Source: an uncultured Acidimicrobiales bacterium (lineage in GTDB: Bacteria > Actinomycetota > Acidimicrobiia > Acidimicrobiales > SHLQ01). Taken from it: a stretch of 53,460 nt of DNA. The notes below the pieces were generated by a model. That model made no database searches, had not been told where the DNA came from, and saw only the letters and a list, made by a program, of their open reading frames with translations. Positions within the stretch are counted from its first letter, which is position 1, and each line of letters starts with the position of its first letter. This document shows positions 34,290 to 45,359 of this stretch, in pieces. Position numbers and translations under genes: made by a program. Where the stretch lies: positions 1 to 53,460 of the forward strand of contig CALHTB010000026.1 in assembly GCA_938038785.1 (NCBI GenBank), read 5' to 3'.

Positions 34290-35174
34290 CTACAACCAGC
34301 TGATTGCGTTAGGGCCGAGGAGTTCTCGGAGACGAGCGTTGCTCTCTTCGAACACAGGGCCAAACTTGGCCCGGATCCCGGGATCGACCGGGTCGTACTC
34401 GCGCTTGTTGTACAGCGGGTAGTCGACGCCCGACATCGGTGGCAGACCAAGGAAGTCGGTTGCGACACGAACTGTTTCTTCGGGGCGCTCGGATAGGGCC
34501 GCCGAATCGAGCACGAGCACATTGTCTCGGCCGAAGAGGTCGAAATAGCGCTCGAGCTGTTCGGCGTATTGCCCACGCGACAGGTAGGCGTGGTGAATAT
34601 GAGGCTTGGAGACGTACGTCGGATCGGCGATCAACTTGTCGACCTCGCCGGCGAGACGACTCTCTTCGGCCTCGAACGCCGCTTCAAGCTCGAGGGTTTC
34701 GAAGCCGCGCTTCACCTCGTGGTTGTGATGAGAGATTGCTCGGTCGAGAGGTTCACGCAAAACGGCGATAATGCGAGCGTTTGGCGTGACCGAGTGGATT
34801 CGACCGGGCATGGTCGGACCAAAGAGGTAGTACGGTGCGCCTTCGCCAACCGCTGGTTCGGCTCCGTGCTCGGCGGCTTGTGCCTTCAGCGTGGCGCTCC
34901 GAGGAAAGTTACTCCGGTACCAGCTCACCGACTCGTGAAAGTTGGTGTCGTAGTAGTGGACTCCCTTTGCGCGCCGTGGTCCATGCACCAGCTCGTGGGC
35001 AAGGAGATAGATGAACAACGACGTGGTACCGCCGCGCTGGGTTCCAACCACGTAGAAGTTTGGAAGCGAACGTTGCCTCGGATCTAAACGACCAACGTTC
35101 CGGTTTAACCACACATAGGCGTCGCGAACGGGTTCTGGGAGTGCGGATTTACCGAGCGCTTTGCGACCGATCAT
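34290..35174 (-). CDS. Sulfotransferase
   Basis: 294 residues with a sulfotransferase domain. The 5'-phosphosulfate loop is VGTQRGGTTSLF (43-54) and the 3'-phosphate site is VLREPLDRAISHH, with Arg140 and Ser148. It transfers sulfate from PAPS to a hydroxyl, most likely on a glycan, in view of its operon. It is the last gene of the EPS operon, 13 bp after the APH-fold gene, and joins the fused sulfotransferase encoded upstream, giving the locus two sulfotransferase domains. No PAPS-synthesis genes are in the window. Confidence 0.9.
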   Translation of the reverse strand: MIGRKALGKSALPEPVRDAYVWLNRNVGRLDPRQRSLPNFYVVGTQRGGTTSLFIYLLAHELVHGPRRAKGVHYYDTNFHESVSWYRSNFPRSATLKAQAAEHGAEPAVGEGAPYYLFGPTMPGRIHSVTPNARIIAVLREPLDRAISHHNHEVKRGFETLELEAAFEAEESRLAGEVDKLIADPTYVSKPHIHHAYLSRGQYAEQLERYFDLFGRDNVLVLDSAALSERPEETVRVATDFLGLPPMSGVDYPLYNKREYDPVDPGIRAKFGPVFEESNARLRELLGPNAISWL

Positions 35175-35187
35175 CGAGGTCCAATCA

Positions 35188-36291
35188 TCAAGAATTCAGA
35201 GCGGCCAGGGTATCGACTACCTTCTCATGCCGCTCGCTGAGCAGTGCTTCCGCCTCGCAGTGTCGCGCACACAACTCGAACAGATACATGCGCTTCACGA
35301 TGTTGTGCTGATCTTCAGGCACTCCCATCGCATCGAGATCGGCGTCAGCGGCATCGAGCCCTTCGCCGTACTGATAGTGGAGGTGCAACACGTCAAGGCC
35401 GGTCGGAACGCCAACGGTCGTTCGCTCCCAATCCCAAATGCAGAGCTTGCCCGTTGGAGACCAGCCCATATTCCACGGCGACCAATCGCCGTGCCACGCT
35501 GACGTTCGCACCGCGTTGAACTTCTCGGACTCACTGAGCTGAGACATCATTGCCTGTACCGAGTCGAGCTTCGTGTCATTCATCCGAACGGGAAGCCGGT
35601 GCCACCATTGCGAGTCCTGCATCGAAACTCCCTCGGCGAACCGCTCCGAGAACTCCCGGGCAGTCGCAACGGGAACCTCATCAAAGTCGACTCCAAGGTC
35701 GGAGGTCAGATCGAGTGCACCCATAACCAACAACGCGCTGTTCCCGTAGTCGCCCAGGTGCATCAGCGGCGGCGTAACCACATTCTTCAACGGGTCAGCA
35801 GCCATTGCATCGAGCCAGCGGCCCTCGTTGCGGACCATCTCAGCGGTGTGATCGTCGGGGCCAAGCTTGGCCACGGCAAACATGCCATCTTCTCCATAGC
35901 AGCGAACGACTGGTTTGCGATTCGGGCGGGGCGGGCCCACCGCAATCGAGATTCGAAGATCGGTGTCGAGAACCTCGCAGAGGTGCTCGCGAAGTGTGTG
36001 GTCGAGCGTGCCCGAACTCACGCTCCAAAGGCCCTTCTTGCGGCGACTGATGACCTTCGGCGCTGCCTTGGAGAGCACACCTTGGACCTTGCCGTTGTCG
36101 GTCCGGCTCTGGATCATCCGGTCGCTGACATCCTGAATTGCCCGTGGCTCGTTCTTGTCAACAACGATTCGGGCCGAGGATCGATTCGGAAGAACGATGT
36201 ACTGCTCGTCGGAGTTGGGGTCGGTGAGGTTGCCCTTGGGACCAACCAGAACCTTCTTCCACCACGCGTCCGATGGTTCGAGCTGGCTCAT
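35188..36291 (-). CDS. APH/choline-kinase-fold phosphotransferase-like protein in EPS operon
   Basis: 367 residues. The C-terminal part (about 130-330) shows an aminoglycoside-phosphotransferase-like fold: HGDWSPWN at 267-274 (the Brenner HxD...N catalytic loop), Asp287 in IWDWER as the metal aspartate, and VAKLG with Lys142 as a possible ATP lysine. The N-terminal 120 residues are unassigned. Its ATG overlaps the stop of the polymerase gene by four bases, so it belongs to the EPS operon. It may phosphorylate a sugar or lipid-linked sugar, or have a structural role. Resistance is not implied by the context. Confidence 0.75.
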   Translation of the reverse strand: MSQLEPSDAWWKKVLVGPKGNLTDPNSDEQYIVLPNRSSARIVVDKNEPRAIQDVSDRMIQSRTDNGKVQGVLSKAAPKVISRRKKGLWSVSSGTLDHTLREHLCEVLDTDLRISIAVGPPRPNRKPVVRCYGEDGMFAVAKLGPDDHTAEMVRNEGRWLDAMAADPLKNVVTPPLMHLGDYGNSALLVMGALDLTSDLGVDFDEVPVATAREFSERFAEGVSMQDSQWWHRLPVRMNDTKLDSVQAMMSQLSESEKFNAVRTSAWHGDWSPWNMGWSPTGKLCIWDWERTTVGVPTGLDVLHLHYQYGEGLDAADADLDAMGVPEDQHNIVKRMYLFELCARHCEAEALLSERHEKVVDTLAALNS

Positions 36292-37631
36292 GCCGGTACA
36301 GCGGTCTGCGACATTGCCCGAGCGGTCTCCTCGTCGTTCACCCGCTGATCACGGAGAAACACCGCAGCGCAGATCATCATGACGGCGAGCGGTGCGGGAA
36401 GGTGGTCGTACACAAACATCGTCGGAATCGCAGACGCAACCGCTAAGTGCAGCAGCAGTTGCTCTTGGTTCTGGATTCTTCGGCCGGTTCGTATGGCCAT
36501 GCCCACCCAGAACGTCACATAGAGAATCACTCCCGGAATGCCCTGGCTAAAGAGCGCAGTCCAGAACATGCCGTGCGTACCGATTGCCGGGCGATTCGGA
36601 TCAGGGTTCGAGATTGGGGCGCCGTAGCCAAGAAGCGGTGACCCTGGGACACGTTCGAGCACATCGGAGTAGATATCGCCTCGGGCGTCGAAAGAGTGGC
36701 TACTGGTCGTGCGACCAGCTGCGACCTCACCCAACGGCGAAGCCAAAATCAGAGCGCCAGCGAAGAACAAGATGATGACCAGGCGAATGGCGAGGACAAG
36801 CTGTCCAGTTGAAGCACGGCGGATGGCAACGTAAATGACGCTTCCGACAAGGGCAATCCAAAGACCACGGTTTGCCGAGATCACCATGGGGATAAGAGCA
36901 GCCAAGGCAACGATCGGCAATACAGCACGGAAGCGCTTAGCTCGACCAGCCGCAGCGACAGCGGCGAATGTCGTCGGGACGAGGGCTGCGCCCCACATGT
37001 TGGTGAACGGGAACGGCATCGCTGGTCGGTTCAGGGCGAACCCAAGGAAGTCGTGGGTTTGAGCGAACGGCGGCCGAACCAAGTTGTTGACAAGAGGGTT
37101 TTCCAACAACGACCGCGGCATTACGAACGAAAGAGGCGTCTGCAGACGCACCTCGCCCAGGATCAGGCCGAGATACCCGCCAACGATGGCGGTGAATACG
37201 AAGATCGACGCGATCGACGCCAAGATTCGGCCGGTCGGAAGATACTTCTGCGGGACGTTGTAGACGTACAAGAACAGGTTCGTGGCGCCGATGTAGGTGA
37301 CCGCTCGAAACAGGAATGAGAGATAGCGGTTCACGGTTGGTTCGAGCGTGAACACCGAGGCCAGCATCCATCCGACGTATAGCAGCCAAGGAATAAGCAC
37401 GTTGGGGATGCGGATCGGCTTCATCATCAACAAGCCAATGCCAGTTGCCGCCCCAGCGATCGCGAACGTGAAGTAGCTCAATCCAAGAGCCCAAAAAAAC
37501 GGCAATGCTGGAATGACGTAGAACGGCAGGCCCGGATTGAAGATGCCCTTGAGCTCCGAACGGCTCCTCGCTAGACGCGGAAGATCCTTCGACCCCATAG
37601 AGGGAGGCGCCGGCGGTGCGGTGACCGCCAT
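36288..37631 (-). CDS. O-antigen ligase/polymerase-family membrane protein (Wzy-like)
   Basis: 447 residues with about ten to eleven hydrophobic helices. The family pattern is a long extracytoplasmic loop before the last helices, here about 310-375 with SHSFDARGDIYSDVLERVPGSPLLGYG, which fits the O-antigen ligase/polymerase domain. The protein would join polysaccharide repeat units on the outer face of the membrane. It overlaps the glycosyltransferase gene (TAATG) and the APH-fold gene (ATGA), so it is translated in one unit with them. No Wzx-type flippase is encoded in the window. Confidence 0.85.
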   Translation of the reverse strand: MAVTAPPAPPSMGSKDLPRLARSRSELKGIFNPGLPFYVIPALPFFWALGLSYFTFAIAGAATGIGLLMMKPIRIPNVLIPWLLYVGWMLASVFTLEPTVNRYLSFLFRAVTYIGATNLFLYVYNVPQKYLPTGRILASIASIFVFTAIVGGYLGLILGEVRLQTPLSFVMPRSLLENPLVNNLVRPPFAQTHDFLGFALNRPAMPFPFTNMWGAALVPTTFAAVAAAGRAKRFRAVLPIVALAALIPMVISANRGLWIALVGSVIYVAIRRASTGQLVLAIRLVIILFFAGALILASPLGEVAAGRTTSSHSFDARGDIYSDVLERVPGSPLLGYGAPISNPDPNRPAIGTHGMFWTALFSQGIPGVILYVTFWVGMAIRTGRRIQNQEQLLLHLAVASAIPTMFVYDHLPAPLAVMMICAAVFLRDQRVNDEETARAMSQTAVPA

Positions 37632-38539
37632 TAGATCGAGTTGCCCCGCTTTTGCAGCTGCGAGACGACCGTTGCCGACGGAACGCCAGCGGCAACAGCC
37701 ATGGCAAGCGCAGCGCGCCCTTCCTTCGGGTTCAACTTGAGGGTCTTCTTCGCAAGCTCGAGGGCACCCTTACGGTCGCCAAGAGAGGCCTTGGCGTACG
37801 CCATCTGTCCGGTGATTCGGGCCAAGCCAACCGGCTCGGTCTCGAACTCGGGATACAGATCGAGGATGTACTGCAAACCGTCGATACGCATTTGCCAGCG
37901 CTCGGCGTAGAACGACGCTGTGTGCCACCGCACCATGACGAGCGCGGCAGGCACGAGCAACATGTCGGTGTACCGGGTTGCGCGCAGCAGCCATTCGTAA
38001 TCTTCGCCGTACCCGCCGGGTACGTCTTCATCGATGAGCCCCATCTGATCGATGAGCTCAGCGCGTCGCATCAAAAACGTTGAAGGGTGAGCTTCGAAGA
38101 CGCGGCTTCGAAGAAAGTCACGGAACGTAATGCGAGGCTTTTCCCGAATGCGCTCGACGCTTTCACCCTCGTAGGTGACGGTGACGCCCGAGCCAACGAA
38201 GTGGACATCGGGATTCGAGTTGAGCACTTCGACTTGGCGCCGGATCTTGCTCGGCACCCACACGTCATCGTCGTCGCAGAACGCAACGAGATCGCTGGAG
38301 GTCGCGAGCATTCCGGTGTTGCGAGCACCCTGCAGACCCTGCACTCGGGAGTTCGGCACGATGATGACCGGACGGTTGCCGCCTTGGACTGCAAGCGACA
38401 TGTCAGGTTCGGTCTGGTCGAAAATGACGATCGTCGTGATCAGGCCTTCGTAGTCCTGAACCCTGATTGCCTCGAGCGTTTCGCGAAGCAACTCAGGCCG
38501 GTCTCGGGTGGCAACGATGGTGGCAACTGACGGAGCCAT
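37631..38539 (-). CDS. Family 2 glycosyltransferase with C-terminal helical repeat
   Basis: 302 residues from the ATG at 38539, which overlaps the preceding stop (TAATG); the frame is open upstream but inside another gene. The GT-A domain shows SVATIVATRDRPELLRETL, GARNTGMLA and CDDDD at 88-92 (the metal-binding acidic cluster), with GGYGEDYEWLLRA as the acceptor-side motif. The last ~60 residues (AYAKASLGDRKGALELAKKTL...) look like a TPR unit. It adds a sugar from a nucleotide donor to a lipid-linked acceptor at the cytoplasmic face. Donor unknown. Confidence 0.9.
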   Translation of the reverse strand: MAPSVATIVATRDRPELLRETLEAIRVQDYEGLITTIVIFDQTEPDMSLAVQGGNRPVIIVPNSRVQGLQGARNTGMLATSSDLVAFCDDDDVWVPSKIRRQVEVLNSNPDVHFVGSGVTVTYEGESVERIREKPRITFRDFLRSRVFEAHPSTFLMRRAELIDQMGLIDEDVPGGYGEDYEWLLRATRYTDMLLVPAALVMVRWHTASFYAERWQMRIDGLQYILDLYPEFETEPVGLARITGQMAYAKASLGDRKGALELAKKTLKLNPKEGRAALAMAVAAGVPSATVVSQLQKRGNSI

Positions 38540-40065
38540 TAGACGTCCTTGGAGTAGTGGTAGCGATCGAGCATCGGGCCGGTCACGCGACTCACGAGTG
38601 AACGCATTTTCGGATCGAGATCGCTGCGCCACTTTTCATCGACACGAAGCTCGACCGGCTTGCGGTCGAGGCGTCGCGGGTTACCAGAAACCGAATGGCC
38701 CTCCCCCAACATCAACGGCTCGTCGCCAAAAAGCTCGTCTCCAGTTGGTTCGACGCCAGCAAACTCGAATATCTGATCGAGCGTTTCGGCCGGGTTCGCA
38801 ACAAAATCCTCGTACCGGATCGTGGTGGTCGGAACACCCAACCGATCCATGTTCGCGAACGCAAAGTTAAACCAAAGCCAACGAAGACCAATGCGGCCGG
38901 GGTGTAGCGTATCCATTGCTCGGTTTTCGCCCTGGACTTCGGGGCGATCGATGACTTTCGACCACGAGTTAGCGACACCACGGGGGTCGCGCACTAGGTG
39001 CAGGACACGTAAATCAATGTCGGGAAGCTGGCGGAGCAAGAGCGCCGTCGACACGTGTTTGGACGTGTCAACAATGACCGTCTTGCCCGATACTTCGAGG
39101 ATCGCACGCAGGATGCGGCTCACGACCGCGCCGTACTGCACGGTACTCGTCGCCATGTAACGCGAGATGTTTGGAACGAGTAGGCGCGGGATGTGGCGGG
39201 TGCGGTCAGCGCGCATCTGCAAGGTGTGCATACGTTCGCCCGAGATGTGCTGCCATCCGCCAAAAGCGATCTCGCCGACCTTGCCCCAAAATACACAGTC
39301 CGAAAAACTCTGGCCGCAGCCGCACAGGTTGTTCTCGATAACGCCGCGCTCCCACAGGTGCACGAGCTCGCCAATATTGACCATGTGCGGGTTCTCGTTG
39401 AGCAGATCGGACAGGATCGTGCTCCCCGAGCGCGGTACCGAGCCAATGAACAGGACCGGGATCTTCTGCACATCGGAACGAATCGGCACCACATCTGCCA
39501 ACTCTTTTGAGCGGGTCTCAGCGCGGGGGCCGAGCAGTTCGACCATCTGGTCTTCGAACTTGATCAGCGAGACCGCTGCGTGACCGTCGTCGACGGCAAC
39601 CTCGGGAGCGCCACGCTCGACAGCCAAGTTGAGCAAGCGAAAAAACTCATCCTTTGTGCGAGCCATTTGGATCTCGCCGTGCGCGGCCAGACGTTCACAG
39701 AAGTCGACCTGGTGATCATTGACGTGTTCGTCGTACTTCTCTTCGCGAGGAACAACGATCGGCACGATGCCATTTGAACGGCACTCGAGGATCGTGGCTG
39801 GCCCGCCGTGACACACCACGACGGTTGCCTGCTGGAACTCTTCGACGAGCTGGGTGCGCTGCAGGTAGTCAACACTTTCGACATGTTCGGACTTCGCCGA
39901 CGTGCCGCGCTGAACGATTGCGCCCTGAACGTCTGGCTTTGTCGCCATCCACTCGTCGAGCCACCAGACCATCCGGTCGAACCGGTGATAGTCGGTGCCT
40001 ACGGTTACAAAGAGCCGCTCGATCCCGGAGGATTCCGAGAGCGGGGCGTCGGAAATATCGGTCAC
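38539..40065 (-). CDS. Fusion: Alg13/PssE-like glycosyltransferase + sulfotransferase
   Basis: 508 residues from a GTG at 40065, which overlaps the stop of the upstream Alg14-like gene (GTGA); the frame is open to 40152 but that extension lies inside the other gene. Residues about 16-178 form a GT28 C-terminal domain like Alg13/PssE (RLFVTVGTDYHRFDRMV; VVVCHGGPATILECRSNG at 82-99; VPIVVPREEKYDEHVNDHQ). After a linker, residues about 202-508 form a PAPS-dependent sulfotransferase (IPVLFIGSVPRSGSTILSD as the 5'-phosphosulfate loop, HLVRDPRGVANSWSK as the 3'-phosphate site). So one polypeptide should carry sugar transfer and sulfation. The fused order is unusual. It is paired with the Alg14-like subunit encoded immediately upstream. 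Confidence 0.9.
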   Translation of the reverse strand: MTDISDAPLSESSGIERLFVTVGTDYHRFDRMVWWLDEWMATKPDVQGAIVQRGTSAKSEHVESVDYLQRTQLVEEFQQATVVVCHGGPATILECRSNGIVPIVVPREEKYDEHVNDHQVDFCERLAAHGEIQMARTKDEFFRLLNLAVERGAPEVAVDDGHAAVSLIKFEDQMVELLGPRAETRSKELADVVPIRSDVQKIPVLFIGSVPRSGSTILSDLLNENPHMVNIGELVHLWERGVIENNLCGCGQSFSDCVFWGKVGEIAFGGWQHISGERMHTLQMRADRTRHIPRLLVPNISRYMATSTVQYGAVVSRILRAILEVSGKTVIVDTSKHVSTALLLRQLPDIDLRVLHLVRDPRGVANSWSKVIDRPEVQGENRAMDTLHPGRIGLRWLWFNFAFANMDRLGVPTTTIRYEDFVANPAETLDQIFEFAGVEPTGDELFGDEPLMLGEGHSVSGNPRRLDRKPVELRVDEKWRSDLDPKMRSLVSRVTGPMLDRYHYSKDV

Positions 40066-40562
40066 ATCAACCTGCCAATAAGCTCCGCCTTCGGATGGAA
40101 GACCAGTTGGTCTTCCCACTGAACGAGGAAACTGCTCGACAACGGCGCGCACAGACGTGCGGTGAGCGATGCATGGTCGATACGGTCGTAGACCTCGATG
40201 AATACGGTTTTGACACCCATGAGGCGTCCGAGCAAGAAGAACGGAAACGCGACTGCAGCACCCGTGCTAATCAGCACGTCGGGGCGCTCCCGGCGCAGCA
40301 CCTCCCACGCAAGGCCGAAGTTGCGGACGAGGTTCGGGATATTTCGAGTGGTTGGGTAGTGAGCCCAGTCGCAGCGCTCAGATTCGAGAAGATCGTGGCT
40401 ATCGGGCATGTCAAAGGTCACCCAAAAGCGGTCATGGTTTTCCCACCATGGCTGAAGGACCAGCAGGTGGGCCAGATGTCCACCAGACGAGCCAACGAGG
40501 CCAACGTTCAGCTGTTGACCATCCCCGAGAACGTCGCTTAGTGATTCTTCCTTCTTACTCAT
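40062..40562 (-). CDS. Alg14/PssD-like glycosyltransferase subunit
   Basis: 166 residues. It has the Alg14/PssD pattern: GLVGSSGGHLAHLLVL (21-36), DVLISTGAAVAFPFFLLGRLMG (95-116), and FIEVYDRIDHASLTARL. Alg14-type subunits anchor their Alg13 partner at the membrane and bind the acceptor; together they make one two-part glycosyltransferase. The partner is the fusion protein encoded directly downstream, sharing the GTGA overlap. The upstream BY-kinase gene overlaps this ATG by four bases. Confidence 0.9.
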   Translation of the reverse strand: MSKKEESLSDVLGDGQQLNVGLVGSSGGHLAHLLVLQPWWENHDRFWVTFDMPDSHDLLESERCDWAHYPTTRNIPNLVRNFGLAWEVLRRERPDVLISTGAAVAFPFFLLGRLMGVKTVFIEVYDRIDHASLTARLCAPLSSSFLVQWEDQLVFHPKAELIGRLM

Positions 40563-42310
40563 GCGCTCTCCTCGAGATCATCCGCGTTGGAGACCTCGGA
40601 AATGATGTCAGCGTCCTCGACGACCTCTAGGTCGGCGCTTGTCGCCGGGCTGGCCTGCGGTACCGAAGCTGAGCTCCGGGCACCAAAGGTATGGGCCTCG
40701 GTCGGCGCGGCGCTGGCGCCATTGCCAGGAACCCCGGTGGGGATAACTACGGATCCAACGTCGCCGTAACCGCCGGGCAGAAGGCTGAGGCGGCTGTTCC
40801 GGTTGATAATTGAGCCGACAACATCGGCCTGCACGTTGAGGAGCTGGATGCGGAGGTCGCTGAGTTCGCTGCGGCGGGTGCGGCCCACTGCAGCGACGAT
40901 GTACACGGCGTCGACAACGGCGGCGATCTGTAGGCCGTCGGCGTGGGTCAGTGCGGGCGGTGCGTCGAAGATGACGATCATGCTTCGTTCTTGCGCAACC
41001 GCTAGGAGTGCCGCTATGCCATTGTTCGACAGTGGCGATGTTGCACCGTTACCGGTTGGCATGACGGTGATTCCAAGGCGCTGCGGTGCCGCTGCTATGG
41101 CTGCTCGGGCGGCGTCGAGGTCGCCCTTGCTGCGCAGGTAATCGCTAAGTCCGGGTTCGGAACTCAGACCAAAGATCTGGTCGACAGCTTCGTTGCGGCG
41201 ATCAGCAGCGACGAGCATGACGCTGCGCCCGGTCTGCGAGATGGCTAGAGCCAAGTTGACCGCAGCCGTGGTACGACCTTCCCCGTCGGTAGCGCCCGTG
41301 ACGGCGATCGAGTCGACGACGAACCCGTTGCGCGGCGCGAGTGCGGCAGCGGCAAGGCGACGGAACGCCTCGGCCCCTTCGGCATGGGAGCTGACCGCGG
41401 TGACGAGCGCCGGGGCGCCTTCGGTGATGCGTGGAATATCGCCGAGCACAGGAACGCCGAGGTCGAGTTCGGTCTCGGCCGAACTTGAGACACGACGATC
41501 GAGACGATCGAGCAGGATTGCGGCGAGAGCACCGAGGAGGAGGCCCATCATGATTCCGGCGAGGATCGCGAACACTCGGGGCACACCTGATGCGTCAGCC
41601 GACGGCGTCGAAATGTTGCCTAGGACTGAACCCACATCGAGAGGGGTGCTCTGGAGGGTGTTGACCTGCGAACGAAGGTCGAGGCGTTCGGGCTCGATAC
41701 GACGGAGGCGAATCTCGGCGAGCGTGGCATCAACCGAGTCAGGTTCGGCGTTTTCGAGGATTGCTTCCTCGGTCTCGATTCGCAGATCGAGATCGTCGAG
41801 CTGACGGATGAGGCTGTCTTCAGTGTTGTCGCGAATGCCCGCAGCACGTTCGAGACGTTCCTCCAGATACGCGTCGATGGACGTCTGCAAGACAAACGCG
41901 GTCTTCTCTGGGCTGCTCGATCGGTACTTGAATTCGAGGATCTGGGTGTTGCAATCGTTCGTGACGATAAGGGCACTGGTGTTCAGGCACGCGGTGACCA
42001 GAAGTTCCTCGTCCCATCTCTCGAGCGTGATGGTGTGGGGGCTGTTGGTATTGACCTCGTTGACGACCTTGTCGCCAAGAGACTTCGCCACGATGGCCTC
42101 AGTGTCTTCGTTGATGGGGTCGTTGATGCGACCAACATCGCCCAGGCTTGGCACAAGGCGAACAGTCGCCTCTGATTCCCAGAAGTTCCGCTGCCCAGGC
42201 AGTAGGAAGAGCGAGATAGCGACCATGCCCAGTACGGACAGGGCAATGATCCACCAGCTACGACGGAAGATCCGTCCGTAGTGGCCTAGTTCTAGTTCGT
42301 CATCGTTCAT
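40559..42310 (-). CDS. Wzz/BY-kinase-like polysaccharide co-polymerase with degenerate P-loop
   Basis: 583 residues from ATG 42310. The N-terminal Wzz-type part has two membrane helices (about 18-38 and 245-270) bracketing a coiled-coil-rich extracytoplasmic stretch. The C-terminal part (about 315-500) is a CpsD/Wzc-like nucleotide-binding domain. Its Walker A, GATDGEGRTT (339-348), has Arg346 in place of the usual lysine; Walker A' reads VMLVAADRR, and Walker B is MIVIFDAPP with Asp449. No tyrosine cluster is seen at the C-terminus, which only has one Tyr in its last ~90 residues. So it likely controls polymer length but may not autophosphorylate as classical BY-kinases do. First gene of the EPS operon. 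Confidence 0.85.
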   Translation of the reverse strand: MNDDELELGHYGRIFRRSWWIIALSVLGMVAISLFLLPGQRNFWESEATVRLVPSLGDVGRINDPINEDTEAIVAKSLGDKVVNEVNTNSPHTITLERWDEELLVTACLNTSALIVTNDCNTQILEFKYRSSSPEKTAFVLQTSIDAYLEERLERAAGIRDNTEDSLIRQLDDLDLRIETEEAILENAEPDSVDATLAEIRLRRIEPERLDLRSQVNTLQSTPLDVGSVLGNISTPSADASGVPRVFAILAGIMMGLLLGALAAILLDRLDRRVSSSAETELDLGVPVLGDIPRITEGAPALVTAVSSHAEGAEAFRRLAAAALAPRNGFVVDSIAVTGATDGEGRTTAAVNLALAISQTGRSVMLVAADRRNEAVDQIFGLSSEPGLSDYLRSKGDLDAARAAIAAAPQRLGITVMPTGNGATSPLSNNGIAALLAVAQERSMIVIFDAPPALTHADGLQIAAVVDAVYIVAAVGRTRRSELSDLRIQLLNVQADVVGSIINRNSRLSLLPGGYGDVGSVVIPTGVPGNGASAAPTEAHTFGARSSASVPQASPATSADLEVVEDADIISEVSNADDLEESA

Positions 42311-42379
42311 ATGATATGTATCCCGTCCACGCGGCAAGAATAGTGACTTGCCAATCGGCAGGAGACACGCAGAATTAAA

Positions 42380-42608: not shown

Positions 42609-43724
42609 ATGACGAAACAACACTACTCGTGGGTGAGACGACAATGGCGTCACCCGGGTGTTATATCCGTTGCATTCATCGGCCTTCTCCTTGCCGCCTG
42701 CACCTCACAGACGGGGACCTCGAGCGTCACCTCTGCAACAACCGATGCCCCTCCGACAACCGCTGCCCCCGTCGAGACAGCGGACACTCCAAATACCACC
42801 GAAACCACCACCCCAACGACCGGCGAGGTCGCAGTTCCACACCCACTGGACCTCATCGGACCGGACTTCGAAGGAGCGCTACTCGGCGTGTCGACCGGCC
42901 TCAGTAAGGCCGAACGTGCGCCTCGGTTTCGCCAGCTCGAAGCTGACGCTGGCCGCCAATACGACATTGGCCATGTATTCCATGCCTGGGACAAAGCCAT
43001 TCCGACTGAAGACGACCTCATGCATCTCGAGGATGGTCGCATCCTCATGATTTCTTGGAATGGCACCGACACGAAGGAAATTGCGTCTGGTTCCCATGAC
43101 GACTGGATTCGTCAGCAGGCACAATCTGTCAAGGACCTGGAGCAGCCGCTCCTGCTTCGCTGGTTCTGGGAGATGGACGGCAACCGCAAACGGGGCCTTG
43201 TTCATTCGGGGCCAGACTATGTTGCTGCCTGGATCCACGTCCGTTCGATCTTCGATGACGTCGGTGCCGACAACGCCCAGTTCGTGTGGTGCCCGAATGA
43301 GTTCTTGTTCTGGAATAACGGCGACCCAGAGCCTTGGTACCCAGGCGACGAACATGTCGATTGGCTGTGCGCGGATGGATACAACTGGGCTGATACGACC
43401 GCTAGCGACGAGTGGGTGCACTTCGACCACATGTTCGAAGACTTCATTGCCTGGGCCGGCCCCCGCAACAAGCCAATTGTGATTGGCGAGACGGGCTCGA
43501 ACGAGGCAGAAGAGGGAGAGAAGGGTGACTGGCTGCGATCTTTGCCACAGATTATTCAGAACGAGCTTCCCGAGGTCGATGCCGTTGTGTACTTCGACAA
43601 GGACTTCCGAAGTGCCGGCCACGCCGACTGGCGAGTCGACACCTCCGAGTCCACCTATCAAGGCTGGATCGACATGAGCAACGATCCGTACTTCAACCAG
43701 CTCGACAACCCAGCCCAACAATAA
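42609..43724 (+). CDS. Lipoprotein GH26-like glycoside hydrolase
   Basis: 371 residues. A lipoprotein signal (helix, then LLLAAC with Cys31) and a Thr/Pro-rich linker (about 38-75) put it on the outer face of the membrane. The catalytic domain has the GH26 pattern: acid/base Glu188 in RWFWEMDGN and nucleophile Glu294 in IVIGETGS, with HAWDKAIP and YNW motifs. GH26 enzymes are mostly beta-mannanases; other beta-glycan specificities occur. It is divergent from the EPS operon and six bases ahead of the next gene, a second GH26-like enzyme. A role in trimming or releasing the locus's polysaccharide is plausible but unproven. Confidence 0.85.
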   Translation: MTKQHYSWVRRQWRHPGVISVAFIGLLLAACTSQTGTSSVTSATTDAPPTTAAPVETADTPNTTETTTPTTGEVAVPHPLDLIGPDFEGALLGVSTGLSKAERAPRFRQLEADAGRQYDIGHVFHAWDKAIPTEDDLMHLEDGRILMISWNGTDTKEIASGSHDDWIRQQAQSVKDLEQPLLLRWFWEMDGNRKRGLVHSGPDYVAAWIHVRSIFDDVGADNAQFVWCPNEFLFWNNGDPEPWYPGDEHVDWLCADGYNWADTTASDEWVHFDHMFEDFIAWAGPRNKPIVIGETGSNEAEEGEKGDWLRSLPQIIQNELPEVDAVVYFDKDFRSAGHADWRVDTSESTYQGWIDMSNDPYFNQLDNPAQQ

Positions 43725-43730
43725 GGACAT

Positions 43731-45359
43731 ATGAGAAACCGCCTCCTCATAACCTGTGTAGTGCTTGCGGTCGCTGCGCTTACCGCATCATTGTTCACCG
43801 TCACTGCTCCCCCTGCGGAAGCACAAGGCACGCCGGGCCCCACGTTGGGCGCGTATGCACAGCCCATTGGCAACGAAAGCAACATCGACGCCTTTGTCAA
43901 GCTCGAGGCCCAGCTCGGAACCACGCTGCCGATGATTCGGGCGTTCGCTGAGTGGGACGACGCAATCGGTGCCGACAAACCACTGCACATGTGGGCCCAC
44001 AACGGCGATCGCGATCTTTTCGTGTCGGTGAAGCCACAGCGGTCGGATGGTTCGATCATCACGTGGCGCCAGGTCGCCAACGCCCAACCCGGCAGCCGGA
44101 TCTATGGCGAAATGCAAGCCTTAGCCGACGGTGCCCGCCGCTATCCCGGGCAAATGATCCTTGGCTTTCACCACGAGCCCGAACGTTCGTCGAACCTGAA
44201 CTTTGGCGACAGCGACGACTACCAGGCCGCACATCGCAAGCTCCACGCGGTATTCGCCGCCGAGGGAGTATCCAACGTCCAGTGGACCTGGATCATGACC
44301 GAATGGTCCTTTGAAGTGGAGACGATCCGCCCCAACGACCGTCGCGTTGCCGACAAGTGGTATCCAGGTGACGCCTTCGTCGACATCATTACCTCCGATC
44401 CGTACAACTGGAACAACTGTCGCGGCGATGGTAACGACCCGTGGAACACCATGGAAGACGAACTTGCTCCGCTCTTGCGCTTTGCGGCAAAGCACCCCGG
44501 AAAGCAATTGGCGCTCGCCGAGTTTGCTTCCGACGAAGGAACGTCGGGCCGTAAGGCTCAATGGATCAACGAGGCCCGAGCGTTGTTCAAAACGGCTCCT
44601 TACCGTGACTCGTTCGTTGCCCTGATGTACTTCCACGATGACGGCGCCGCCGACGGCTTTCCGAATTGTGATTGGTGGCTCGACTCGTCGCCTTCTTCGA
44701 TAAACGCTGCTGCGAACTGGTTCCAAGACCCCGTATTCCGGTCTCGCCTTGGCGCAACAACGCAAACACCCAGTGCGCCTGTGTTTTGCAACAATCAACT
44801 CGTAACGGTCAACCTTGCCGAGGGCGAACGACCAACCGGTGGAGACGACATCATTCGCGGCACGAACGGCAACGACACAATCAGTGGCCTCGGCGGCAAT
44901 GACATCATCTGCGCACTCGGCGGCAACGACACGGTTCACGGTGGTGACGGGTTCGACAAGGTCTTCGCTGGCGCAGGAAACGACACGCTCATCGGAGGTG
45001 CGGGAAACGACTTGCTCATCGGTGGCCCCGGCATTGACGAGATCTCAGGCGGCAACGGCAACGACCGCATCCAAGGCGGCGACGGCACGGACACGCTGAA
45101 CGGCAACAATGGCGTCGATCGCATTAGCGGCGGCAACGGCAACGACATCTTGCGCGGCGGTGCATCGTCCGACACGCTCTTTGGCAACCTTGGCAACGAT
45201 CAGCTGTTTGGTGAAGCTGGAAACGACGTCCTACGGGGCGGAGCCTGGCGGGATTCCATGAACGGTGGCGCGGGAACGAACGACGGTTGCACCCTTACCG
45301 ACCCGGCTGGCCTCACTGAAACTCGTATCCAATGTGAATCTGGCGTCTTTAACCGCTAG
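43731..45359 (+). CDS. Secreted GH26-like glycoside hydrolase with RTX calcium-binding repeats
   Basis: 542 residues. A Sec-type signal peptide (about 1-32, cleavage near PAEAQG) is followed by a GH26-like domain: acid/base Glu149 in GFHHEPER, nucleophile Glu264 in ALAEFASDEG, and YNW in DPYNWNN. From about residue 366 to 525 come RTX nonapeptide repeats (GGNDxI/L, GGxGxD), which bind calcium and usually act in secreted proteins. It lies six bases after the first GH26 gene with AAGGA as ribosome-binding site, so both are probably co-expressed. The stop codon overlaps the stop of the convergent permease gene by two bases. Confidence 0.88.
   Translation: MRNRLLITCVVLAVAALTASLFTVTAPPAEAQGTPGPTLGAYAQPIGNESNIDAFVKLEAQLGTTLPMIRAFAEWDDAIGADKPLHMWAHNGDRDLFVSVKPQRSDGSIITWRQVANAQPGSRIYGEMQALADGARRYPGQMILGFHHEPERSSNLNFGDSDDYQAAHRKLHAVFAAEGVSNVQWTWIMTEWSFEVETIRPNDRRVADKWYPGDAFVDIITSDPYNWNNCRGDGNDPWNTMEDELAPLLRFAAKHPGKQLALAEFASDEGTSGRKAQWINEARALFKTAPYRDSFVALMYFHDDGAADGFPNCDWWLDSSPSSINAAANWFQDPVFRSRLGATTQTPSAPVFCNNQLVTVNLAEGERPTGGDDIIRGTNGNDTISGLGGNDIICALGGNDTVHGGDGFDKVFAGAGNDTLIGGAGNDLLIGGPGIDEISGGNGNDRIQGGDGTDTLNGNNGVDRISGGNGNDILRGGASSDTLFGNLGNDQLFGEAGNDVLRGGAWRDSMNGGAGTNDGCTLTDPAGLTETRIQCESGVFNR

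Follow-up and report, generated by a model that had tools for sequence, protein, structure and literature searches.

Split glycosyltransferases (GTs) such as PssE/PssD, EpsF/EpsE and Alg13/Alg14 are among the described systems closest to the locus analyzed here, and split and fused forms of Alg13/Alg14 have been discussed (PMC4973528; here and below, papers are cited for the parts of their text that were available). The locus lies in a 53,460-nucleotide stretch of DNA from an uncultured Acidimicrobiales bacterium (contig CALHTB010000026.1 of assembly GCA_938038785.1), henceforth called the window. It resembles the split enzymes in that an Alg13-like half and an Alg14-like protein match PssE (below cut-off) and PssD (over cut-off), and their genes overlap; it differs from them in that the Alg13 half bears a C-terminal sulfotransferase (ST). 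WelK, a beta-1,4-glucuronosyltransferase, is matched in its first half by the Alg14-like protein and in its second half by the Alg13 half, both far under cut-off; by the match coordinates WelK is one chain with Alg14-like and Alg13-like parts, whereas here Alg14 is free and Alg13 is joined to the sulfotransferase. We consider it rather probable that the fusion is a two-enzyme subunit encoded in a Wzy-type operon: the Alg13 half, together with Alg14, would add a sugar, and the sulfotransferase half (ST1) would sulfate the lipid-linked repeat unit, in two reactions at two sites. Coordinates are given in Table 1.

The fusion frame, read from 40065 to 38539 on the reverse strand, has 508 codons, and its sole stop is terminal. 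These coordinates and the division into two halves had been proposed in an earlier note on this DNA, made from the letters alone, and they proved correct; the segment between 39480 and 39560, where that note advised looking for a stop codon separating two genes, contains none and is read through. AlphaFold2 was run on an alignment of relatives (A1) that held 68 of the 78 available rows, window included; L041 and L048 are among the rows left out. The whole fusion was predicted with a mean predicted local distance difference test score (pLDDT) of 90.3 and a predicted template modelling score (pTM) of 0.75. In the model the protein is two separate, confident domains (residues about 14-180 and 200-508), each with its own motifs, and a low-confidence linker between them dips at residues 188-191. 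Template modelling scores obtained with Foldseek over the whole query are low (at most 0.38 among the matches listed) because any match spans one domain only.

The Alg13 half is recognized by Pfam Glyco_tran_28_C at residues 52-128 (E 3.5e-11, 43.9 bits against a cut-off of 22) and by NCBIfam PssE at residues 19-146 (3.6e-18, 65.9 bits). As the latter score is under the 120-bit cut-off, this half is called PssE-like and not PssE. Block means of pLDDT are mostly above 85, with 69-71 at residues 151-170. GT-B glycosyltransferases, including isolated C-terminal (UDP-sugar-binding) domains, occur lower in the Foldseek list, and a profile search against solved structures retrieved MurG (4e-6) and yeast ALG13 (0.002). 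Six residues (H86, G88, E113, V115, H118 and Q119) are invariant across the 21 Alg13 rows of alignment A4, which omits L045 and L092 as well as decayed rows, and the window has all of them. Hence both the HGGPAT loop, which we take to be the probable nucleotide-sugar-binding loop, and the EHxxDHQ motif are conserved in the window, the comparison being with the relatives gathered here.

Pfam models Sulfotransfer_3 (6e-13) and Sulfotransfer_1 (9e-10), both over their cut-offs, match the C-terminal half within residues 205-443. Foldseek paired this half with the CurM sulfotransferase and with tyrosylprotein sulfotransferases at a probability of 1.00, and the profile search against solved structures gave 4gox (5e-16). 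The window carries every residue that is invariant among the 37 sulfotransferase rows of alignment A3. Two of its motifs are, presumably, those that bind the phosphates of 3'-phosphoadenosine 5'-phosphosulfate (PAPS) in PAPS sulfotransferases: RSGST as the 5'-phosphosulfate-binding loop and VRDPRGVANS as the 3'-phosphate-binding motif. By profile cut-offs, fold and phosphate motifs, ST1 is classified as a PAPS-dependent sulfotransferase. Across the nine rows of the window's genus the motifs of both halves are intact save for two substitutions, H86 to Q in G003 and T216 to S in G001 (RSGSS; locus L046, outside A3). Profiles, model and motif alignments thus agree with the earlier note, which had described a GT28/Alg13-like N-terminus and a PAPS sulfotransferase C-terminus with intact motifs. 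When the halves were scanned apart, as that note had suggested, each kept its own Pfam match (4.7e-12 for the Alg13 half, 1.6e-13 for the ST half); chance domain calls are thereby ruled out.

A search for the same domain pair in other genomes, also proposed in the note, found a full-length, stop-free match in 14 of the 397 genomes of the order; the joining of the two halves is therefore real and not a misassembly. That two genes were merged by an assembly or sequencing error might be suspected in a fragmentary assembly (134 contigs, 73% complete), all the more as the unfused arrangement occurs elsewhere. However, 13 further genomes of the window's family hold stop-free, full-length fusions, and we reject such an error as practically negligible in probability. 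Within the genus the full-length fusion occurs in nine of 11 genomes, the window's own included. Of the 19 family genomes, 16 have the Wzy gene of the operon, and 14 of these have the fusion; the other two, G011 (genus g2) and G015 (genus g6), carry ST1 alone. Three family genomes have neither the fusion nor a Wzy match (G002, G009 and G012, with completeness of 67-85%). Among 396 genomes of the phylum, G000, G629 and G518 matched full length, and G639 matched up to residue 435. A plasmid collection of 72,556 records yielded 124 matches at 1e-5, and no match extends over 80% of the query.

The neighboring gene was identified as Alg14/PssD-like in the earlier note, and two family models bear this out: Pfam Alg14 (3.8e-10, 40.4 bits against 27) and NCBIfam PssD, which passes its 110-bit cut-off with 112.7 bits. 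GGHL and further residues are invariant in an Alg14 alignment of 26 rows. Against solved structures, the Alg14 protein found no match by sequence (E up to 1) or with profile A2 (E up to 0.1). The GTGA overlap between this gene and the fusion, also in the earlier note, is borne out by the sequence, and a four-base overlap of Alg14 stop and fusion start is possible in 14 of the 14 fused loci listed. Gene neighborhood, together with the joint decay described below, suggests that the Alg13 half and Alg14 would form an active enzyme.

The operon was compared by searching the window proteins with phmmer against the open reading frames of 40 loci (f1 denotes the window's family and g1 its genus). Gene order in f1 is Wzc-like, Alg14, Alg13-ST1, GT2, Wzy, kinase-like, ST2; the exceptions are g2 and g6, which are without Alg14 and Alg13, and some loci cut by contig ends. 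A variant is found in L045 (G003), where Wzy and kinase-like genes are swapped, the Wzc-like gene is several kilobases away and the Alg13 loop histidine is replaced by glutamine. A Wzy polymerase, a co-polymerase (with matches under cut-offs), glycosyltransferases and sulfotransferases occur together, and the likely product of the operon is a sulfated polysaccharide of the cell surface. The kinase-like (APH) gene of the window accompanies the operon in relatives, and WpsI of Actinoplanes is also kinase-like. Of two divergent GH26-like proteins, which might trim or bind the polymer, one also has RTX calcium-binding repeats; both genes were found in seven of eight other g1 loci, and the eighth (L040) ends too early.

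Table 1. Features of the window and, in the last four rows, other GT-ST fusions found in actinobacterial loci (positions of the latter are within the locus named).
Feature	Position	Strand	Evidence or remarks
Alg13-sulfotransferase fusion gene	38539..40065	-	508 aa, GTG start, TAA stop
Alg13/PssE-like half (GT28 C-terminal, GT-B C-domain), residues about 14-180	39526..40026	-	Pfam, model, profile
HGGPAT loop, residues 86-91	39793..39810	-	H86 and G88 invariant in A4
EHVNDHQ motif, residues 113-119	39709..39729	-	E, V, H and Q invariant in A4
Linker, residues 181-199	39469..39525	-	AlphaFold2 pLDDT block means 59 and 62; <50 at 188-191
PAPS-sulfotransferase half (ST1), residues 200-508	38542..39468	-	Pfam, Foldseek, profile
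RSGST, residues 212-216	39418..39432	-	G and T invariant, R and S at least 90% (A3)
VDTSK, residues 332-336	39058..39072	-	K invariant in A3
VRDPRGVANS, residues 358-367	38965..38994	-	R359 and S367 invariant in A3
GTGA stop/start overlap of Alg14 with fusion	40062..40065	-	
Alg14/PssD partner gene, 166 aa	40062..40562	-	Pfam, NCBIfam
Wzc/Wzz-like co-polymerase with ATPase domain	40559..42337	-	Directly upstream of Alg14; profile matches all under cut-off
GT2 glycosyltransferase, 302 aa	37631..38539	-	Pfam (scanned from 38536); shares one base with the fusion stop
Wzy/O-antigen ligase-like polymerase	36288..37631	-	Pfam Wzy_C 4.1e-9
APH/kinase-like protein	35188..36291	-	Pfam APH 7.6e-6, 26.3 bits vs 23.2
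Second sulfotransferase (ST2)	34290..35174	-	Sulfotransfer_1 1.3e-11
GH26-like protein, divergent neighbor	42609..43724	+	Pfam GH26 1.2e-4, 22.0 bits vs 20.2
GH26-like domain with RTX repeats, divergent neighbor	43731..45359	+	HemolysinCabind 1e-36; GH26 0.0041, under cut-off
ST-GT2 fusion, G649	L098 924-3755		Frame start not fixed
GT2-ST fusion, G138	L109 7272-9686		Frame start not fixed
GT4-ST fusion, G036	L117 2-2749		Frame start not fixed
ST-GT4 fusion, G074	L118 2565-5459		Frame start not fixed

A mechanism can be proposed on this basis. The N-terminal half would bind the donor, as one half of a split GT-B glycosyltransferase that is completed by the Alg14/PssD neighbor; the latter would also recruit the fusion to the membrane on its cytoplasmic side. 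The pair would add one sugar to a repeat unit linked to undecaprenyl diphosphate, and the C-terminal sulfotransferase would use PAPS to sulfate the unit, on the sugar added by Alg13 or on a neighboring one, before export and polymerization. The fusion would keep both enzymes at one place and in equal amounts; its most likely role is to co-localize two enzymes that act on one lipid-linked repeat unit. The earlier note had gone further, in supposing that the sugar is added and sulfated in one step. That part found no support: there are two domains with their own motifs, the linker is weak, and the halves are lost independently.

The sugar added by Alg13 need not be the acceptor of the sulfate, as ST1 stands beside GT2, with no Alg13 at the locus, in g2, in g6 and in Nonomuraea. 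In Nonomuraea gerenzanensis, CysQ-like (below the model cut-off), CysD and CysN frames directly precede ST1 and GT2, and matches to ST2, kinase-like, Wzy, Wzc-like and GH26-like proteins lie near ST1; no Alg13 or Alg14 match was found in that stretch. Judging from these neighborhoods, the sugar that GT2 would add is as good a candidate acceptor as that of Alg13. Among the 62 rows of the ST1 tree, GT2 directly follows ST1 in 27 and precedes it in one; in the other 34, mostly distant, no GT2 relative adjoins ST1 on its strand. The latter figure is one reason to ask whether the ST half might act on a substrate other than the repeat unit of the operon, such as a glycolipid, a small metabolite or a protein. 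Among proteins of solved structure, the best matches of this half are tyrosylprotein and polyketide-pathway sulfotransferases, and acceptor specificity cannot be read from sequence. On the other hand, GT2 lies directly after ST1 in 15 of the 16 rows of the window's family (in the sixteenth the contig ends there), inside a polysaccharide operon, and normal formation of sporangia depends on the wps-1 cluster with its two sulfotransferases (PMC13390465). A foreign substrate therefore seems to us improbable.

If the fusion joins two enzymes, its relatives may tell which parts belong together. The fate of the halves was as follows: (i). In g4 (G013, G016, G017 and G018) and g5 (G014) the fused Alg13 half is without the HGGPAT loop and EHxxDHQ, and the GSSGGHL of Alg14 is gone in g4 and degraded in g5; the ST half retains its motifs.

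(ii). In g2 and g6 both Alg14 and Alg13 are gone, and ST1 directly follows the Wzc-like gene. As the ST1 tree nests these two genera within the g4/g5 group (100/96), they most likely lost Alg14 and Alg13 after the fusion.

(iii). The opposite pattern is seen in G639 of family f90 (L091:6899-8428), where the Alg13 and Alg14 motifs are intact and the ST half is without the conserved lysine and the 3' motif, with a changed C-terminal part. In its sister, G629, both halves are intact.

(iv). G518 is an ambiguous case, with T91 changed to I in Alg13 and intact Alg14 motifs.

In these lineages the status of Alg13 thus tracks that of Alg14 and not that of the sulfotransferase to which it is covalently tied, so that Alg13 and Alg14 look like one working unit and the sulfotransferase like another; the argument is built on a small number of independent events.

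Selection was estimated with the Nei-Gojobori method on nine chosen pairs, as the ratio of non-synonymous to synonymous substitution rates (dN/dS). Both halves are under strong purifying selection in the window's genus: across four pairs, dN/dS is 0.021-0.075 for the Alg13 half and 0.023-0.091 for the ST half. Three g4 pairs gave 0.08-0.26 and 0.02-0.09, respectively. Values in genus and g4 pairs are rough because dS is mostly above 1. Higher ratios with no contrast between halves were obtained for the f90 pair (G629/G639; Alg13 0.40, ST 0.42) and for an unfused f3 pair (Alg13 0.52, ST 0.42). Hence the absolute value is no marker of decay; the ST half of G639 is not distinctive by this measure, and the useful contrast is only that inside the g4 gene.

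These data bear on another possibility, namely that the fused Alg13 half is a pseudo-glycosyltransferase that only anchors or stabilizes the sulfotransferase. Motif loss in g4 and g5, in both Alg13 and Alg14, speaks in its favor. So does the g4 half itself, which in L047 is still predicted to fold (mean pLDDT 90.1 and pTM 0.69 for the whole protein) and whose dN/dS is 0.08-0.26 in three pairs. Given this predicted fold, g4 has likely retained a pseudo-glycosyltransferase, and we extend this reading to g5 as likely too. L047, L048, L049, L050 and L051 (from G013, G017, G014, G018 and G016) all keep open frames despite the loss of GT motifs. The window's genus, in contrast, retains the motifs, the Alg14 partner and a low dN/dS; for the window itself a mere anchor is unlikely, and we give this explanation very little weight.

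Outside the fused loci, Alg14, Alg13 and ST1 are separate neighbors in seven loci of family f3, in G328 (f7), and in G446 and G578 of other families, which makes the fusion probably derived; neighbors first and fusion later is the simplest reading of these gene orders. In G649 Alg13 adjoins the sulfotransferase, and no Alg14 match was found in the short stretch before them. Three genomes of family f18 (G226, G315 and G361) have Alg14-Alg13-GT2 at one place and ST2-ST1 at another. In these (L063, L065 and L070 with L064, L066 and L071) the two sulfotransferases are adjacent and seem to travel as a pair.

This history raises the question of whether the fusion is incidental. Under that explanation, co-transcribed neighbors were joined by a small frameshift and the halves go on working as before, with no mechanistic coupling. 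In eight of the 10 unfused loci the Alg13 stop could overlap the ST start by four bases, and a small insertion or deletion there could join the genes; moreover, the unfused state looks ancestral and the halves decay independently. Against this stand the retention of the fusion in 14 of the 16 operon-bearing family genomes, its probable origin on at least two occasions, and the existence of GT2 and GT4 fusions among related sulfotransferases. We regard an incidental fusion as a serious alternative, albeit a less probable one than functional coupling.

The number of origins was addressed with trees. In the ST1 tree (62 rows) the 16 f1 rows group weakly (93/62), and the f90 pair and G518 stand apart from them, G518 being placed firmly among unfused neighbors (100/97). 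In approximately unbiased (AU) tests, for which groups were named only after the tree had been inspected, a clade of f1 plus G518 was rejected (p 0.00027), as was a clade of all three fusion groups (p 0.0105); f1 plus f90 was not (p 0.124). A single origin of all Alg13-ST fusions was accordingly discarded. In the Alg13 tree 12 of the 31 inner branches are starred, and these can be reconciled with one origin of the fusion. This tree places g4 and g5 apart from g1, which counts against a single fusion within f1; perhaps the decayed halves are misplaced as long branches. Altogether, the trees suggest that the Alg13-ST fusion probably arose at least twice.

Other glycosyltransferases have been joined to related sulfotransferases. 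Six long frames without an Alg13 match were scanned: two contain a GT2 domain (L098 and L109), and four contain a sulfotransferase only (L072, L078, L101 and L105). Among 15 loci around other ST matches, two hold GT4 fusions (L117 and L118); the long frames of L112, L122 and L126 showed a sulfotransferase only when scanned, and the remaining ones were judged by eye to be read-through of other frames. The ST1 tree puts the sulfotransferase of G649 near other operon ST1s and that of G138 farther away; the G036 and G074 sulfotransferases match weakly and are outside the tree. A tentative generalization, which we find attractive but would not call probable, is that a recurrent class of actinobacterial GT-ST fusions exists. 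In it, related sulfotransferases would have been joined repeatedly, at either end, to the glycosyltransferase that lays the acceptor sugar (Alg13-type, GT2 or GT4), yielding modules that first glycosylate and then sulfate lipid-linked intermediates, and the fused GT half of two sister genera would be a retained pseudo-enzyme that scaffolds the sulfotransferase.

Several observations weigh against a functional two-enzyme subunit. No flippase or initiating transferase was found among the operon genes scanned; families of both kinds do match elsewhere in the same genome, Polysacc_synt (flippase) on other contigs. APS kinase makes PAPS, and none was found in the window's own 73%-complete assembly, which is the exception among the 20 genomes searched (19 have the enzyme, including 10 of 10 other genomes of the genus). 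The three fusions outside f1 (L090, L091 and L092) have no GT2 beside them on their strand, and no Wzy match was found in the stretch fetched for L090 and L091, so that their setting differs. The halves are separable, as attested by ST1 alone in g2 and g6, by the loss of GT motifs in g4 and g5 and by the loss of ST motifs in G639. Finally, human ALG13 isoform 1, like the protein of the window, has an Alg13 domain followed by an unrelated C-terminal enzyme domain, although it is eukaryotic and carries an OTU deubiquitinase instead of a sulfotransferase; it is reported to form no complex with ALG14 (PMC9527342), and a C-terminal fusion could therefore harm pairing. We nevertheless favor the two-enzyme subunit. 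In its favor count the profile, fold and motif evidence for both halves, the purifying selection in the genus, the largely conserved operon, the APS kinase of the other genomes of the genus, the CysQ-like, CysD and CysN frames before ST1 in Nonomuraea, the Alg14-Alg13-ST1 gene order of unfused genomes and the joining of related sulfotransferases to GT2 or GT4 domains.

The covalent tie between a GT subunit of the cytoplasmic face and a PAPS sulfotransferase suggests that sulfate is added while the repeat unit is still linked to its lipid, prior to export, and the fusion is a single protein with which the timing of sulfation might be tested. In addition, relatives form a natural series (separate genes, fusion, fusion with degenerate GT, fusion with degenerate ST, and ST alone) that can serve as a set of variants to judge the worth of fusing pathway neighbors.

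The author of the earlier note knew of no described example of this fusion. In agreement with that statement, no Alg13-sulfotransferase or other bacterial GT-sulfotransferase fusion was found among the open-access PMC papers listed, as far as their text was available, subscription journals being outside the search; the available parts of PMC4483657, PMC13171606 and PMC10117803 mention no sulfotransferase fusion. The fusion is conserved and, as far as the text searched shows, undescribed; all of its parts belong to familiar enzyme families, and the type of pathway is familiar too. Most of what is known of bacterial sulfated polysaccharides comes from cyanobacteria and certain marine proteobacteria (PMC8205485, PMC11641403, PMC11766843), and ABC (ATP-binding cassette) transporters are predicted for the sulfated capsules of Vibrio (PMC11641403) and Cobetia (PMC11766843). 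The sulfated product Synechan has been shown experimentally in cyanobacteria. Its xss cluster in Synechocystis is, like the window's operon, of the Wzx/Wzy type with two sulfotransferases; it differs in being cyanobacterial, in having eight glycosyltransferases and in the absence of a GT-sulfotransferase fusion from its published description (PMC8205485). For an actinomycete a sulfated polysaccharide has only been inferred: deletion of wps-1 of Actinoplanes missouriensis disturbs sporangia, and the sulfated product was inferred by the authors, not shown (PMC13390465). The window's operon resembles this cluster, the comparison being made at the level of the published domains and not of sequence. 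Shared elements are a GT2, two sulfotransferases, GH26, kinase-like, Wzy and Wzz proteins and a sulfate-activation gene beside the cluster. In wps-1, unlike in the window, the second glycosyltransferase is of family GT26 (WpsC), the list includes an own Wzx and a methyltransferase, and it names no Alg13/Alg14 and no fusion (PMC13390465).

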